From: Miniimonas arenae
GTDB taxonomy: Bacteria > Actinomycetota > Actinomycetes > Actinomycetales > Beutenbergiaceae
Assembly (NCBI RefSeq): GCF_006351005.1
Contig: NZ_VENP01000024.1
Span: 1-47,982 of the forward strand
DNA: 47,982 nucleotides
Direction of reading: 5' to 3'
Shown here: positions 22,457 to 46,619 of the stretch, in pieces
Layout of the letters: each line of letters opens with the position of its first letter
Position numbering within the stretch: the first letter of the stretch is position 1
Notes under the pieces: generated by a model
Databases searched by the model: none
Seen by the model: the letters and a program-made list of their open reading frames with translations, nothing else
Told to the model about the DNA's origin: nothing
Translations under genes and position numbers: made by a program

Positions 22457-23638
22457 GTGCCGACCCTGACCCGTGCCGCCACCTCCCGCCCGACTTCCCC
22501 ACCCGCGCACCGATCCCCCCGTTCCCGCTCCCGCCGCATCCTGTCCCGGGTGCCGCGGCTCGCCGTCGTGATCGCCGCCGTGGCGATGCTCGCGGGCTGC
22601 ATGAAGTACAACGCCGACCTCACCGTGAACGGCGACCTCGAGGTCACCGGCACGCTCGAGATCGCGATGCAGACCAGCGCGCTGGAGACGATGGGGATGT
22701 CGAAGGACGACTTCCTCCAGCAGATGACCTCCGGCACCGACGACGCGCCCGAGGGCGTCACCGTCGAGCAGATCGACGACGGCGAGTACGTCGGGATGCG
22801 CGTAGTGATGGACGACGTGCCCGCGAGCGAGTTCCAGGGCACCGACGAGGGCCAGTCGTTCACGTTCACCAAGAACGACGACGACGACACCATCACGTTC
22901 TCGATGCCGAGCTTCACCTCCACCCTCGGCGACCTCGACTCCAGCGGCACCGACCTGGGCGCCGACCCCGCGACCCTGCTGGACGAGGGCACCATCGTGG
23001 TGACCTTCCCGGGCAAGGTCCTCGAGGCTCCCGGCGCCGACATCGACGGCAACACCGCGACGTGGGACCTCACGAGCTACACCGAGGCGCTCACCGCGAC
23101 GGCGGAGGCCGGCGGGTCCGCGGGTGGCTTCCCGATCTGGATCGTCGTCGTGCTGCTCGCATTCCTCGTGGTGGTCGCGCTGGTGGTGTGGTTCGTGCTG
23201 CGCAACCGCAAGAACGGCGGCCCGGACGCGGCCGCCGCCTACGCGGGGGCGTACGCGGGCGCCGGTGGCGGGGCCGCCGGTGGGGCGGGCGTCGTGCCGG
23301 CGGTGCCCGGCGCGCCGACGAGCCCGGAGGCGGCGCCGTGGGCGCAGCCGCAGGCGCCTGCGCAGCCCGTCGCGCCCACCGCGCCGAGCGAGTCGGCCGC
23401 GCCGCAGGCGCAGCCGAGCCAGCCCTGGGACCGTCCCGCCGCGCCCCCCGCGCCGAGCGAGCCGCAGGCGCAGCCGAGCCAGCCCTGGGACCGTCCGGCT
23501 GAGCCCACCGCGCCGACCACGCCCGCTGCGCCCGACGGCGAGCCCACGTCCGGCGAGCCCGACGGCGAGCCCACGCCCACGGAGCCCGACGGCGAGCCCA
23601 AGCCGCCGACGCAGCCGTGGGGCCCGCCGTCGAGCTGA
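22457..23638 (+). CDS. LppM-like lipoprotein with C-terminal membrane anchor and Pro-rich tail
   Basis: About 393 residues. A basic head and hydrophobic stretch end in the lipobox LAGC, with the lipidated cysteine near residue 48. An exported domain of about 165 residues ([21 protein letters not shown]...) resembles the LppM domain of actinobacteria. A transmembrane helix lies near 222-246 ([19 protein letters not shown]). The cytoplasmic tail is Ala/Pro/Gln-rich and carries repeats of QPSQPWDRP (twice) and DGEP (three times). The GTG start at 22457 follows GAGGAG by five bases. TAGCGT at about 22405 could be its -10 box. Function in this group is not known; the mycobacterial protein affects phagosome traffic, which need not apply here. 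Confidence 0.8.
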
Positions 23639-39775: not shown

Positions 39776-39870
39776 CGGCGCCGGTGCGGCGCGCAAGCTC
39801 GACCGGCGCCGGTGCGGCGCGCAGTCTCGACCGGCGCCGGTGCGGCGCGCAGTCTCGACCGGCGCCGGTA
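39776..39870. repeat. Three 28-bp tandem repeats plus a partial copy
   Basis: Units start at 39776, 39804 and 39832, with a partial one at 39860. The second and third are identical; the first differs by two bases. Each junction carries the 12-bp palindrome ACCGGCGCCGGT. The array sits in the 219-bp gap between the helicase stop and the permease stop (convergent). Confidence 0.9.
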
Positions 39871-42119: not shown

Positions 42120-43547
42120 TCAGCTGCTGGCGGGCCAGGAGGCCTCGATCGTGTCGACCACCGTCTGGGTGTCCGTGCCGGTCAGCCAGTTGACGATGCC
42201 GGTCCAGAACGTCCCGGCGCCGACCTCGCCGGGCATGAGGTCCGAGCCGTCGAAGCGGAACACGGACTCCGGGTCCTGGAGGATCTGGGCGTTGAGCTTG
42301 TCGAACTCGGTCGCGAGGTTCTCCGGGTCCAGGCCCTTGTTGGCGCTGACCCAGCCGCCGGTGTCGGTGGCCTTCGCCTTGGCGTTGGCCCACTCCGGGG
42401 AGGACAGGTAGGTCTGGAACGCCTGGACCTCGGGACGGTCGGCGAACGCGGCCACGAACTCGCCGCCGCCGAGGACCGGCTTGCTCGTGCCGTCGCCCGG
42501 GAGGTAGAACGCGTAGACGTCGCCGTCGGGGGCCACGTTGGTGCCCTCGGGCCACTGCGTCGCGTAGAAGTTCGCGGCGCGGTGCATCCAGCAGGTGCCG
42601 TCGAGGATCCCGAAGCCGGCGTCCGTCCACGTCGTGGTGGCGATCGAGTCGACGCCGCCGAGGCCGGCGTTGACGAACTCCGGGTTCTTGAGGATCTCGC
42701 CGGCGGTGTCCCACGCGTCGACGATCTGCGGGTCGTTGAACGGGATCTCGTGGGTGACCCACTGGTCGTAGACGTCGGGGCCGGCGGTGCGCAGCACCAC
42801 GTCCTCGATCCAGTCGGTGCCCGGCCAGCCGGTCGCGTCACCGGACTCGACACCGGCGCACCACGGCATTGCGCCGTTGCCCGCCTTGGCCTCGTCGGCG
42901 ATCGTCTGCGACAGGGTGATCATGTCGTCCCACGTCTCCGGGATCTCGTAGCCCGCGTCCTCGAACATCGAGGGCGAGTACCAGACGAAGGACTTCACGT
43001 TGGCGCCGAGCGGAGCGGCGTAGAACGTGCCGTCGACCGAGCCGTAGTCCTTCCACTTCGGGTCGTAGTACTCGTCCACGTTCGCGGCGGTCTGCTCGGG
43101 CGCCGCCACGATCTTGTCGCCGTACTGCGTGACGATCGTGTTAAGCAGGCCCGGCTGGGGCAGGTACGCGACGTCGGGCAGGTTGCCCGCCTGGATCCGC
43201 ACCAGGAGCTGCGCCTCGAACTCGCGCGAGCCCTCGTAGTTGATGGTGACGCCGGTGCAGTCCTCGAACGGCTTGTACGACGCGATCTGCTGGTCCGACT
43301 CCGGCTCCACGATCGACGTGTAGACCGACACGCTCGTGCCGCTCAGGTCGCCGAACTCCTCGTACGGTGCGCAGTCGATCCCCTCGGCCGTGTCGCCGCC
43401 GCCGTCGCCCGTCGCATCGCCCCCACCGGTGGCGTCCCCACCGCCACCGTCGCCGCCCGAACACGCGGCCAGAACGAGTGCGAGCGAGCCAGCAGCCACG
43501 ATGGCAGCGCTCCCACGCACACGTCGCATCCCAATCGATGAGGTCAT
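42120..43547 (-). CDS. Sugar ABC transporter substrate-binding lipoprotein (AglE-like)
   Basis: A 475-residue extracytoplasmic lipoprotein that binds a sugar and delivers it to the two permeases. The lipobox LAAC puts the lipidated cysteine at residue 29. A Gly/Asp-rich flexible linker follows to about residue 55. The type-1 fold then shows GTSVSVYTSIVEPESDQQ, KPFEDCTGVTINYEGSREFEAQ and NLPDVAYLPQPGLL. This wording is what I associate with AglE-type alpha-glucoside-binding proteins, but the sugar is not proven. GGAG lies nine bases before the ATG. Regulation is probably by a LacI-type repressor at the operator-like dyad around 43654-43672; no regulator gene is in the window. Confidence 0.9.
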   Translation of the reverse strand: MTSSIGMRRVRGSAAIVAAGSLALVLAACSGGDGGGGDATGGGDATGDGGGDTAEGIDCAPYEEFGDLSGTSVSVYTSIVEPESDQQIASYKPFEDCTGVTINYEGSREFEAQLLVRIQAGNLPDVAYLPQPGLLNTIVTQYGDKIVAAPEQTAANVDEYYDPKWKDYGSVDGTFYAAPLGANVKSFVWYSPSMFEDAGYEIPETWDDMITLSQTIADEAKAGNGAMPWCAGVESGDATGWPGTDWIEDVVLRTAGPDVYDQWVTHEIPFNDPQIVDAWDTAGEILKNPEFVNAGLGGVDSIATTTWTDAGFGILDGTCWMHRAANFYATQWPEGTNVAPDGDVYAFYLPGDGTSKPVLGGGEFVAAFADRPEVQAFQTYLSSPEWANAKAKATDTGGWVSANKGLDPENLATEFDKLNAQILQDPESVFRFDGSDLMPGEVGAGTFWTGIVNWLTGTDTQTVVDTIEASWPASS

Positions 43548-43653
43548 CTCGTTGCTCCTCCACAGCGTCGTGGTTCGCCGCCCCCGGTCAGGCCGCGGCG
43601 ATCCCCCGAAGGGGCTGACCGCCCGATACAACCCCGGGACAGCGCGCTGCGCA

Positions 43654-43693
43654 ACTGACGAAACGATTCAGTGCCGTAACGGTTGCGTAACGG
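43654..43693 (-). promoter_or_regulatory. Possible LacI-type operator and direct repeats upstream of the sugar ABC operon
   Basis: A 19-bp dyad ACTGA-N9-TCAGT (43654-43672) has a GAAACGATTC core like LacI-family sites. Two copies of CGTAACGG (43675-43682 and 43686-43693) lie 11 bp apart next to it. On the minus strand TTGCGC with TTGTAT 17 bases on is a weak promoter candidate. Nothing else is recognised in 43548-43810. Confidence 0.35.
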
Positions 43694-43810
43694 ACGCCAT
43701 CGAATCGCAAGAATCCAGTAAAGACTTGCGGTGCCTTGCGAGCGAGCGTTCGACGCGGCGGCCACCGGGACCACGTGGGGCGCGCCGTCGGACACGTGGC
43801 CACGTCTACG

Positions 43811-44171
43811 GTGGACACGGCGACCGCGGCGTCCACAGGAGACGCGACTTCGGTCTCGTTGCCGCGTCCCTGGTGGACACCACGACCACGGCGTCCACGC
43901 AGCGCGCTCGAGGAGCCCCGTTGCCGCGCCCACGGTGGACGTGGCGACCGCGGCGTCCACGCAGCACGCGGCAGGAGCCCCGCTGCCGCGCCCACGGTGG
44001 ACACGGCGACCGCAGCGTCCACGCAGCACGCACCAAGAGCCCCGCTACCGCGTCCCTGGTGGACACGGCGACCGCAGCGTCCACGCAGCACGCGGCAGGA
44101 GCCCCGCTGCCGCGCCCACGGTGGACGTGGCGACCGCGGCGTCCACGCAGCACGCACCAAGAACCCCGGGT
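43811..44171. repeat. Six-copy 62-bp tandem repeat array with an invariant dyad
   Basis: Repeat starts at 43811, 43873, 43935, 43997, 44059 and 44121 are exactly 62 bp apart. Every copy keeps GTGGAC-N14-GTCCAC (26 bp) with CGACC in the middle. The other 36 bp varies in two alternating types: copies 3 and 5 share GCGGCAGGAGCCCC and copies 4 and 6 share GCACCAAGA, suggesting growth by doubling of a two-unit block. Copies 3 and 5 can fold a second hairpin (GCGGCAG with CTGCCGC). Since 62 is not divisible by 3, the repeat is not a coding repeat. It lies between the metE terminator and the sugar operon promoter. Confidence 0.95.
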
Positions 44172-44197
44172 GACGCGCCCCACGCAGGCCCGCGCAC

Positions 44198-44231
44198 GCC
44201 CGTGGCGACCCCCGCGGGGACCGCCACGGGC
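44198..44231 (-). terminator. Hairpin terminator after metE
   Basis: A perfect 10-bp outer inverted repeat (44198-44207 with 44222-44231), with CCCC/GGGG pairing inside the loop, 16 bp after the metE stop. Confidence 0.85.
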
Positions 44232-44246
44232 CACGCGCAACCGGCG

Positions 44247-46619
44247 TCAGACCGCCGTCGTCGCCCCGATCTCCGCGCGCACCCGCCGGGCCGCCCCGAC
44301 GAGCGCCTGCAGCGCCGCCGTCGTCTCGGCGTAGCCGCGCGTCTTGAGCCCGCAGTCCGGGTTGACCCACAGCGAGCGCTCGCCCACCGACTCCAGTGCA
44401 AGCCGGAGCAGCTCGGTGACCTCCTCCTCGGACGGCACCCGCGGGGAGTGGATGTCCCATACGCCCGGACCGATGCCGCGCTCGAAGCCGGCCGCCGCGA
44501 CGGCGGGCAGCAGCGACATCCGCGAGCGGGCCGCCTCCACGGAGGTGACGTCGGCGTCGAGCGCGTCGATCGCCCCGAACACCTCTTCGAACTCCGAGTA
44601 GCACAGGTGCGTGTGCACCTGGGTGCGCACCGCCACCCCCGAGGTCGCGAGCCGGAAGGCCGCGACCGCCCAGGCCAGGTAGGCGTCCTGGTCCGCGCGG
44701 CGCAGCGGCAGCAGCTCGCGCAGCGCCGGCTCGTCCACCTGGATCACGCCGATGCCGGCGGCCTCGAGGTCGGCGACCTCGTCCCGCAGCGCGAGGCCGA
44801 CCTGCGTCGCGGTGTCGCCGAGCGGCAGGTCGTCGCGCACGAAGGACCACGCGAGGATCGTCACGGGCCCGGTGAGCATGCCCTTGACCGGGGCCGACGT
44901 GAGCGACGCCGCGTAGGTGGCCCAGGGCACGGTGATCGGAGCGGGCCGCGCGACGTCGCCCCACAGGATCGAGGGACGTGTGCAGCGCGAGCCGTAGGAC
45001 TGCACCCAGCCCTGCTGCGTCACCGCGAAGCCGTCGAGCTGCTCCGCGAAGTACTGCACCATGTCGTTGCGCTCCGGCTCGCCGTGCACGAGCACGTCCA
45101 GCCCGAGCTCCTCCTGCAGCGCGATCACGCTGGCGACCTCGGCGCGCATCGCGTCCTCGTAGCCCTGTTCGGTGAGCTCGCCGCGGCGCAGCGCGGCCCG
45201 CGCCCGGCGCAGCTCTGCGGTCTGCGGGAAGGAACCGATCGTCGTGGTCGGCAGCGCCGGCAGGTCGAGCACCGCCTCCTGCGCAGCGCGGCGCACCGCG
45301 TACGGCTCCCGCGTGAAGGACGACGGCGTGAGCGCGGCAGCCCGCGCCCGCACCTCGGGCCGGACCACGCCGGGCGCGCCGGCACGGTCGGCCAGGGCGG
45401 TCCGGGCCGCGGCGAACGCGTCGGGTGCGCCGTCGGCGCCGGCCGCGATCGCGAGCACCTCGGCCACCTTCTCGTCCGCGAACGCCAGCCAGCCGGCCAC
45501 GCGCTCGGGCAGCAGCGGGGCACCGGCCTCGTCGGCCACCGTGTGCGGGACGTGCAGGAGCGACGTCGACGTCGAGACCGTCGTCGCGCCCGCGCCCAGC
45601 GCAGCCAGCGCGGCGGCCCGCTCGGCCGCCGCGTCGAGGTCGGTGCGCCAGACGTTGTGTCCGTCGACCACGCCCGCGACCAGGGTGAGCGCGCCGAGGT
45701 CGGGCGCCTCGCCGTCGGGCAGCTCACCCTTGACCAGGTCGACGCCCACGGCCTCGACCCCCGCGCCCGCGAGCGCCTCGAGCGCCTCGCCGGGCAGCGT
45801 GCCGTAGGGCGCGGCGACGAAGATCGCCGGTCGCTCCTGCGCCGCGGCGAGCGCTGCGTACGCGTACCCGACGGCGGAGGCGAGCTCCGCCGTCGTGCGC
45901 GCCCAGGAGTCGCTCACCAGGGCGGGCTCGTCGAGCTGCACCCACTCCGCGCCCGCCGCGCGCAGGTCCGCGAGGAGCGCGGCGTAGCCGGCGACGACGT
46001 CGTCGAGCCGGTCGAGCGGGTCGAAGCCCGCCGGGGCGTCGGCCGCGGCCTTGGCGAGCAGGAGGAACGTCACGGGACCCACGAGCACCGGACGGCCGGC
46101 CACGCCGAGCGCCGCCGCCTCGCGGACGTGGTCGGCGCGGCGCGAGCCACGGTAGGCGAGCGGGGTGTCCGGGCCGATCTCGGGCACGAGGTAGTGGTAG
46201 TTGGAGTCGAACCACTTGGTCATCTCGAGCGGACCCTGCGCCGTCGTGCCGCGCGCGAGCGCCCACTCGACGGCGAGCGGCAGCGGCTGCACCGTCGCGC
46301 CGTCCACCTCGGTCAGGAGCGGAGCGACCTCGGGGTCGGTGGCGAGCCGCGCAGGCAACGCACCGAGTGCGAGCACGACGTCGAGCACCTGGTCGTAGTG
46401 GGCGAAGTCCAGCGGGACGGCGGCCGGCTCGGTGAGGCCGAGGTCGCGCAGGCGCGTCACGGCTGCGCGACGCACCTGCGCGGCGCTCGCCTCGAACGCG
46501 GCCTCGTCGGTGCGGCCGGCCCAGTGGTCCTCGAGCGCACGCTTGAGCTCGCGGCGGGGGCCGATGCGCGGGTAGCCGAGGATCGTGGCGGCGGGGAACG
46601 GGGTGGACTGAGTGGTCAT
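44247..46619 (-). CDS. metE: Cobalamin-independent methionine synthase
   Basis: 5-methyltetrahydropteroyltriglutamate-homocysteine methyltransferase, the last step of methionine synthesis without vitamin B12, in the cytoplasm. At 790 residues it is slightly longer than the usual 750-770. The N-terminal domain starts ILGYPRIGPRRELKRALE, the folate-side half. The C-terminal half begins around LPTTTIGSFPQT and holds the zinc ligands in VHTHLCYSEF near 669-677 and NPDCGLKTRGY near 752. GGAG lies shortly before the ATG. It is 85 bp downstream of metF on the same strand with no terminator between, so it should share the SAM-I riboswitch control. Confidence 0.97.
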   Translation of the reverse strand: MTTQSTPFPAATILGYPRIGPRRELKRALEDHWAGRTDEAAFEASAAQVRRAAVTRLRDLGLTEPAAVPLDFAHYDQVLDVVLALGALPARLATDPEVAPLLTEVDGATVQPLPLAVEWALARGTTAQGPLEMTKWFDSNYHYLVPEIGPDTPLAYRGSRRADHVREAAALGVAGRPVLVGPVTFLLLAKAAADAPAGFDPLDRLDDVVAGYAALLADLRAAGAEWVQLDEPALVSDSWARTTAELASAVGYAYAALAAAQERPAIFVAAPYGTLPGEALEALAGAGVEAVGVDLVKGELPDGEAPDLGALTLVAGVVDGHNVWRTDLDAAAERAAALAALGAGATTVSTSTSLLHVPHTVADEAGAPLLPERVAGWLAFADEKVAEVLAIAAGADGAPDAFAAARTALADRAGAPGVVRPEVRARAAALTPSSFTREPYAVRRAAQEAVLDLPALPTTTIGSFPQTAELRRARAALRRGELTEQGYEDAMRAEVASVIALQEELGLDVLVHGEPERNDMVQYFAEQLDGFAVTQQGWVQSYGSRCTRPSILWGDVARPAPITVPWATYAASLTSAPVKGMLTGPVTILAWSFVRDDLPLGDTATQVGLALRDEVADLEAAGIGVIQVDEPALRELLPLRRADQDAYLAWAVAAFRLATSGVAVRTQVHTHLCYSEFEEVFGAIDALDADVTSVEAARSRMSLLPAVAAAGFERGIGPGVWDIHSPRVPSEEEVTELLRLALESVGERSLWVNPDCGLKTRGYAETTAALQALVGAARRVRAEIGATTAV

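Follow-up and report, generated by a model that had tools for sequence, protein, structure and literature searches.

Mycobacterial MIRU/VNTR loci are intergenic tandem repeats of 50-100 bp, in which we know of no dyad constraint. The matS/MatP-like families consist of scattered palindromic sites that are read by a dimer able to bridge sites, and the attC sites of integrons carry the boxes GTTRRRY and RYYYAAC beside cassettes. Among the palindromic repeats, the tandem REP arrays of P. fluorescens SBW25 are described with spacings of 112 and 72 bp (PMC3116915). The dRS3 repeat of the neisserial NIME elements, as presented in PMC3898611, is a pair of 6-bp inverted halves, ATTCCC(N8)GGGAAT, and is a target of a phage integrase. 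The CGTC-REP layout comprises, in the account of PMC3733652, the letters CGTC, a stem of 8-9 bp with A-T at its base, and a CCA tail, and is found in palindromic repeats without a dedicated transposase.

Here, we describe a tandem array of 62-bp units of Miniimonas arenae, located in a window (i.e., the whole stretch of DNA that was analysed) of 47,982 nucleotides of the contig NZ_VENP01000024.1. A preliminary description of the window had not recognised the array as a described element; it turned out to be a member of a dispersed family without common flanks, which has the look of the REP/NIME-type repeats.

The array and its 62-bp unit

The six perfect GTGGAC-N14-GTCCAC dyads claimed in the preliminary description were confirmed, as was their constant step of 62 bp (Table 1). 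With one mismatch allowed, 0.42 dyads are expected by chance in the window, and six or more were obtained in 0 of 100 shuffles. TRF detected a period of 62 bp with 6.0 copies and 81% matches (43808-44180), and the array can also be read as two copies of a 186-bp block of three units (86% matches in TRF; 136 of 164 letters alike). The array had been placed between a metE terminator and a sugar ABC promoter. The metE side of this setting stands, with the gene confirmed by Pfam and a hairpin located after it, but the term sugar ABC is drawn entirely from the neighbour genes: the ORF that adjoins the array had no Pfam match, and two further genes there encode binding-protein-dependent permeases. 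Elsewhere in the window there are a 28-bp repeat beside the permease genes (39776-39869; 3.4 copies, 96% matches) and tandem repeats of 60 bp and 27 bp (23375-23609).

Table 1. Coordinates of the array, its neighbours and examples of other repeats (positions without a prefix are those of the window).
Feature	Position	Strand	Remark
Degenerate seventh half-unit, left of array	43769-43784	.	GACCAC at 43769, then CGCG at 43781; 62 bp before right half of unit 1
Unit 1, A dyad (GTGGAC-N14-GTCCAC)	43811-43836	.	Exact dyad
Linker 1, B dyad (CGCG-N16-CGCG)	43843-43866	.	
Unit 2, A dyad	43873-43898	.	Exact dyad
Linker 2, B dyad (CGCT-N16-CGCG)	43905-43928	.	One letter off
Unit 3, A dyad	43935-43960	.	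Exact dyad
Linker 3, B dyad (CGCG-N16-CGCG)	43967-43990	.	
Unit 4, A dyad	43997-44022	.	Exact dyad
Linker 4, B dyad (CGCA-N16-CGCG)	44029-44052	.	One letter off
Unit 5, A dyad	44059-44084	.	Exact dyad
Linker 5, B dyad (CGCG-N16-CGCG)	44091-44114	.	
Unit 6, A dyad	44121-44146	.	Array likeness fades near 44171 by eye (TRF: 44180)
metE, cobalamin-independent methionine synthase	44247-46619	-	Pfam
Strong GC-rich hairpin after metE, probable terminator	44190-44235	-	-34.9 kcal/mol, z -3.06
ORF adjoining array, probably solute-binding protein	42120-43499	-	459 or 473 aa by start; beside two binding-protein-dependent permease genes
Examples of the G004 repeat	L113:3258, L113:4203, L114:15002, L118:7362		
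Examples of the G008 repeat	L131:1205, L131:2354, L137:3133, L138:16474		

The unit is two-fold symmetric about two centres, A and B, that lie 31 bp apart. A is the dyad GTGGAC-N14-GTCCAC with two inner GC pairs (four letters of the N14), and B is a second dyad, CGCG-N16-CGCG, located in the linker. The conservation was measured in 36 units of M. arenae from 16 places, picked on the 12 letters of A (34 exact and two with one mismatch), and the conservation of the A letters is thus partly built in, because they were the search key. The CGCG positions (-9 to -6 and +33 to +36) and the inner GC positions are each kept in 31-35 of the 36 units, and the letters between them are mixed. By arithmetic, the block centres are spaced 11, 20, 11 and 20 bp, i.e., near whole turns, and the blocks should therefore all be turned toward roughly one side of the helix.

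The preliminary description had taken the linker as free to drift, a view that has to be abandoned, since eight linker letters, the two CGCG blocks of the B dyad, are kept genome-wide. The two alternating types of linker that it had also proposed are found by eye in linkers 3/5 and 4/6, while units 1 and 2 are different. It had further argued for selection from the contrast between an intact dyad and the drifting letters beside it, and this argument holds, given that CGCG, which was not a search key, varies far less than the rest. Between neighbouring copies of 13 arrays, CGCG differs in 7 of 132 cases (5.3%) and the other letters in 123 of 614 (20%; p 1.3e-5); the A half-sites, partly ascertained, differ in 5 of 276 (1.8%), and the inner GC in 11 of 92 (12%), which is not significant against the rest (p 0.086). 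Comparison across 12 loci gave no difference at CGCG (0 of 528 cases), against 38 of 264 for the inner GC, 64 of 792 for the A halves and 1210 of 2508 (48%) for the other letters. Single copies and degraded loci were excluded from these comparisons, and L027, which probably forms one array with L025, was dropped between loci. The alignment A1 (32 of the 36 units) omits window 43811, L017, L019:3995 and L019:4119, all with weak CGCG, and flatters CGCG for this reason; the position and constraint counts given here are independent of A1.

Occurrence in Miniimonas arenae and its relatives

The absence of the dyad elsewhere had been named in the preliminary description as a sign of a neutral VNTR, and the search that it proposed gave the opposite result: the whole genome (3.40 Mb, 148 contigs) contains 36 exact dyads, against 0 in the reversed control, and 34 of them are spread over 16 places, alone or in rows of up to six, with neighbours 62 bp apart. 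The remaining two were excluded from the family as chance (C61:118148, within a called gene, and C101:12909, without CGCG and with poorly called surroundings); C98:19575, also within a called gene, was excluded as well. A sequence-only model scan, in which 150 candidates were scored and weak copies of this genome may be missed, adds at least five places, i.e., C57 and C85, which are strong, and C138:57.5 kb, C72:44.5 kb and C46, which are degraded or variant. This brings the family to 21 places, which would correspond to 19 loci if contig ends that break off within look-alike arrays adjoin in two cases. Four contig ends (C68 end, C107 end, C82 end and C97 start) are inside arrays, and the copy numbers there are probably larger. 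At C138:57442-57551 (L071:3955 and 4017) there is a variant pair with GTGGCC, whose second unit is changed on both arms (GTGGCC..GGCCAC), like the half-site of the relative G009.

The dyads are uncovered by called genes at 15 of the 16 places, and at C76 the called start, which may be miscalled, coincides with a dyad. Where the genes on either side share a contig (17 loci), they are convergent in 4 cases, divergent in 6 and in the same direction in 7. Half-site distances in the analysed stretches, chosen around elements of this genome, peak at 62 and 124 bp for the same direction and at 20, 82 and 144 as well as 42 and 104 bp for opposed directions, the next best distance having a count of at most 4. 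Among the best 45 pairs listed, elements of different loci are 72-90% alike, excluding two pairs that are 97% alike, each of which is probably one array. The 400-bp flanks gave 7 short matches of 21-64 bp. No common function was found among 20 flanking proteins scanned, 18 of them with a Pfam match, and the idea of a regulon was rejected on this basis. The contigs C1, C61 and C83 (464 kb together, chosen post hoc) are element-free beyond background where about 2.9 elements are expected; with a Poisson chance near 0.06, we do not claim any clustering of the elements.

When up to one mismatch is allowed, GTCCAC-N36-GTGGAC-N14-GTCCAC has 24+24 matches in M. arenae and 6+3 in G009, which belongs to another genus; on each strand, the remaining 22 genomes of the bacterial family have 0 or 1 match. 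The reversed control matched once in G001 and not at all in the 23 others. The model R2, strictly filtered at E 1e-4, detects the repeat family in 2 of 297 genomes, which belong to the order and were taken from a larger group, and in 2 of 95 genera (M. arenae and G009); the two genomes detected are also the source of R2, which was built on 37 of the 67 candidates listed, including the doubtful L087:3648. An earlier model, R1, based on the alignment A1, marked something in 48 of 59 genomes at E <=0.01, but in GC-rich DNA its E-values are overly permissive, and they are not used as evidence; of five R1 places inspected, the two in G009 were taken as real and the other three (one from G018, two from G050) as chance. 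A scan of a genome collection, from which the records of the source genome itself may be absent, yielded 11 stretches with letters of the own type and one site each (three Streptomyces, two Sphingomonadaceae and others), which were taken as chance. A phage or plasmid origin was also considered and rejected, as there was no match in plasmids or phages and three pattern scans of viral contigs were empty.

The G009 version of the repeat has its own features. Its second dyad is mostly CCGG-N14-CCGG, with GTGGCC common, and in 14 of 17 aligned units the two arms of the B core have changed jointly (columns 24/45; CCGG). The arrays contain up to eight B dyads, and three of them are organised in higher-order repeats of 142, 148 or 254 bp; the pitch of 62 bp is found only within pairs, the stretch between B dyads being often 17-18 bp longer. 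The half-site GTGGCCAC reads both ways, and thus distances of 2, 18, 44 and 142 are also common. In 13 neighbouring pairs, partly ascertained since the source scan already required near-matches at half-sites and CCGG, CCGG differs in 9 of 104 cases, the half-sites in 12 of 156 and the letters elsewhere in 139 of 364. By eye, the genes flanking the G009 loci differ from those in M. arenae. Directly downstream of one G009 array, L088:4767-4870 looks by eye like a TPP riboswitch.

The purD locus allows a comparison between relatives. The gap upstream of this gene measures 209 bp in M. arenae and contains an array of ~158 bp, and the site is arrayless in G009 (gap of 52 bp) and G008 (73 bp); G013, with a different gene upstream of purD (83-bp gap), is uninformative. 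In G004 the gap is 217 bp and contains a different repeat. Sampling of 20 stretches of 20 kb from each of G004 and G008 revealed that each has a different repeat family enriched between genes. The G004 repeat has the half-sites CTCGCCGAGCG-NNN-GGTTGCGC, often inverted, with 36+41 matches genome-wide (control 0); each of the other 23 genomes has 0 to 5 matches on a strand, compared with 0 to 3 for the control. The G008 repeat is a 22-bp direct or tandem repeat, CGAGGCCCTTCGGGTCCACTCG and variants, with 60+48 matches in G008, 2 in G004 and 0 in 22 others, including the congeners G013 and G017.

Origin of the family and candidate readers

We consider it probable that the array is one tandemly expanded member of a REP/BIME/NIME-like family of dispersed intergenic palindromic repeats, the blocks of which are kept by a putative reader acting in trans. 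Copies would reach new sites through some mobilising activity, and unequal exchange or slippage would add and remove units and keep neighbours alike, and the symmetric blocks would be kept because a factor acting in trans recognises them, either in the duplex or in folded DNA. As the candidate reader, a mobilising or recombining enzyme appears somewhat more probable than a host protein with an architectural or regulatory role, and a hairpin comes third; a host protein or a hairpin, both considered below in their own right, can also be the reader in this explanation, so their odds overlap. A purely selfish repeat is less fitting because more decayed copies would be expected than the few that we judged present (about 3 to 5 of ~20 places), and a site with a host function is less fitting because more sharing between relatives would be expected than was seen at purD, the one locus tested. 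The empty purD site could represent a loss in the relatives.

Concerning partner enzymes, Y1/RAYT (PF01797) is absent from M. arenae and G009 and present in 1 of 24 genomes (G001). The phage integrase that targets dRS3 is of the IS110/Piv kind, and a partner of the IS110 type, considered by this analogy, was not supported, IS110 being near absent: one short match near a contig end was found in M. arenae and none in G009.

It is possible, although rather unlikely, that the dyads are above all host DNA-binding sites, each occupied by a lineage-specific dimer or oligomer that would bridge sites or polymerise along the helix face, organising the chromosome or insulating neighbour genes, with the arrays as strong multi-site loads. 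Discontinuous symmetric blocks on one helical face, the constraint on CGCG outside the ascertainment and the joint change of both arms of the B core in G009 are all in line with such a binder, and the presence of all gene orientations suggests sites that are not tied to promoters or gene ends. However, the flanking proteins share no function and the purD site is not common to G009 or G008. A placement restricted to the terminus was considered in view of the single dif-like site of M. arenae (C65:48239-48258, reverse strand, two mismatches to the motif), which is close to one end of a contig that carries two loci. This idea was dropped, because purD, which has the C72:54 kb array beside it, is separated from dif by 1.3 to 2.4 Mb in six relatives with single-contig genomes (G002, G004, G005, G006, G010 and G011), through which its position in M. 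arenae was judged. The symmetric double changes would be expected of stems too, and an imperfect hairpin, acting as RNA (terminator or mRNA end) or as folded ssDNA, with stems of CGCG, GTGGAC and GC and symmetric internal loops, is an unlikely reading. Elements from nine loci were folded, one of them on both strands, and all ten folds gave a single hairpin on the block stems, with z of -1.2 to -5.6. In the B-centred alignment of both genera, covariation is 0.186 versus 0.157 in shuffles, of which 13 of 500 reach 0.186, a signal that comes from changes between the genera, and pairing is 64.4% versus 63.5%. Within M. arenae, by contrast, the dyad of the A1 units, taken whole, pairs at 72.1% versus 78.0% in shuffles and covaries at 0.066 versus 0.138, with 500 of 500 shuffles as high; this excludes a continuous stem and leaves room for an imperfect hairpin, and the pairs within blocks test nothing because they hardly vary in this genome. 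Neither a preference for gene ends at the 17 loci nor a known RNA family was seen, the three Rfam matches at positions 43400-44600 of the window being all far below the gathering scores.

Tandem copies, like neighbours, the doubled three-unit block and the contig ends inside arrays would also be produced by slippage and gene conversion in a neutral VNTR, the dyads of which would be remnants of a recent common seed. We hold this to be very improbable, as the other letters are nearly saturated between loci while CGCG is invariant there, and an equal architecture is found in another genus beside other genes.

If the preferred explanation, a dispersed and tandemly expanded family with a reader in trans, is true, palindromic repeats without a dedicated transposase gain a family in high-GC bacteria, probably actinobacteria to judge by base composition and the dif motif, and any candidate binder or mobilising enzyme must account for the strict two-dyad geometry. 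Moreover, the different private families of the sampled relatives make repeat turnover measurable. More speculatively, and with a small chance of being right, each lineage may own fast-changing intergenic multi-site arrays together with an equally fast-changing dedicated DNA-binding protein. This would be a bacterial counterpart of satellite-plus-binder co-evolution, in which the 62-bp version would act as a helically phased scaffold with one dimer every three turns; its second motif differs between the two genera in nearly all aligned copies (CGCG in M. arenae, CCGG in G009).

Comparison with described repeats

Two other classes were considered and discarded. In a CRISPR array the spacers would not be expected to resemble each other, whereas here the 'spacers' are alike within an array and the repeat middles differ between arrays. 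The integron attC boxes are not those of this family either, since its kept blocks are, by inspection, GTGGAC, GC and CGCG, and its flanks are ordinary genes. Like the MIRU/VNTR loci, the family consists of intergenic tandem repeats, but symmetric blocks are constrained in it; like the matS sites read by MatP, it consists of scattered palindromic sites, but these form 62-bp arrays and apparently extend beyond the terminus.

The 62-bp unit does not follow the CGTC-REP layout as described in PMC3733652, although YGTCCA occurs inside each half-site. When the 62-bp alignment was inspected against the published description, as far as that account goes, no GTAG or CGTC end tag, short stem or tail was found. 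With NIME/dRS3, as portrayed in PMC3898611, the family has in common the intergenic arrays, the dispersal and the kept 6-bp inverted halves round a variable middle. It differs from the N8, the RS repeats of 30-160 bp and the almost 700 copies given there in having N14, other letters, a second dyad in the linker, a pitch of 62 bp and ~20 places, and its consensus contains neither ATTCCC(N8)GGGAAT nor the RS partner repeats. With REP/BIME/REPIN, in the terms of PMC3116915, it shares dispersed, intergenic, palindromic repeats with regular spacing in composite arrays, at a copy number below the typical one; unlike REP/BIME, it occurs in a genome without RAYT, lacks a GTAG end and showed no bias toward gene ends. 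Because it lacks their defining letters and the RAYT test failed, the 62-bp family is a member of neither group, but it works like both REP/BIME/REPIN and NIME/dRS3.
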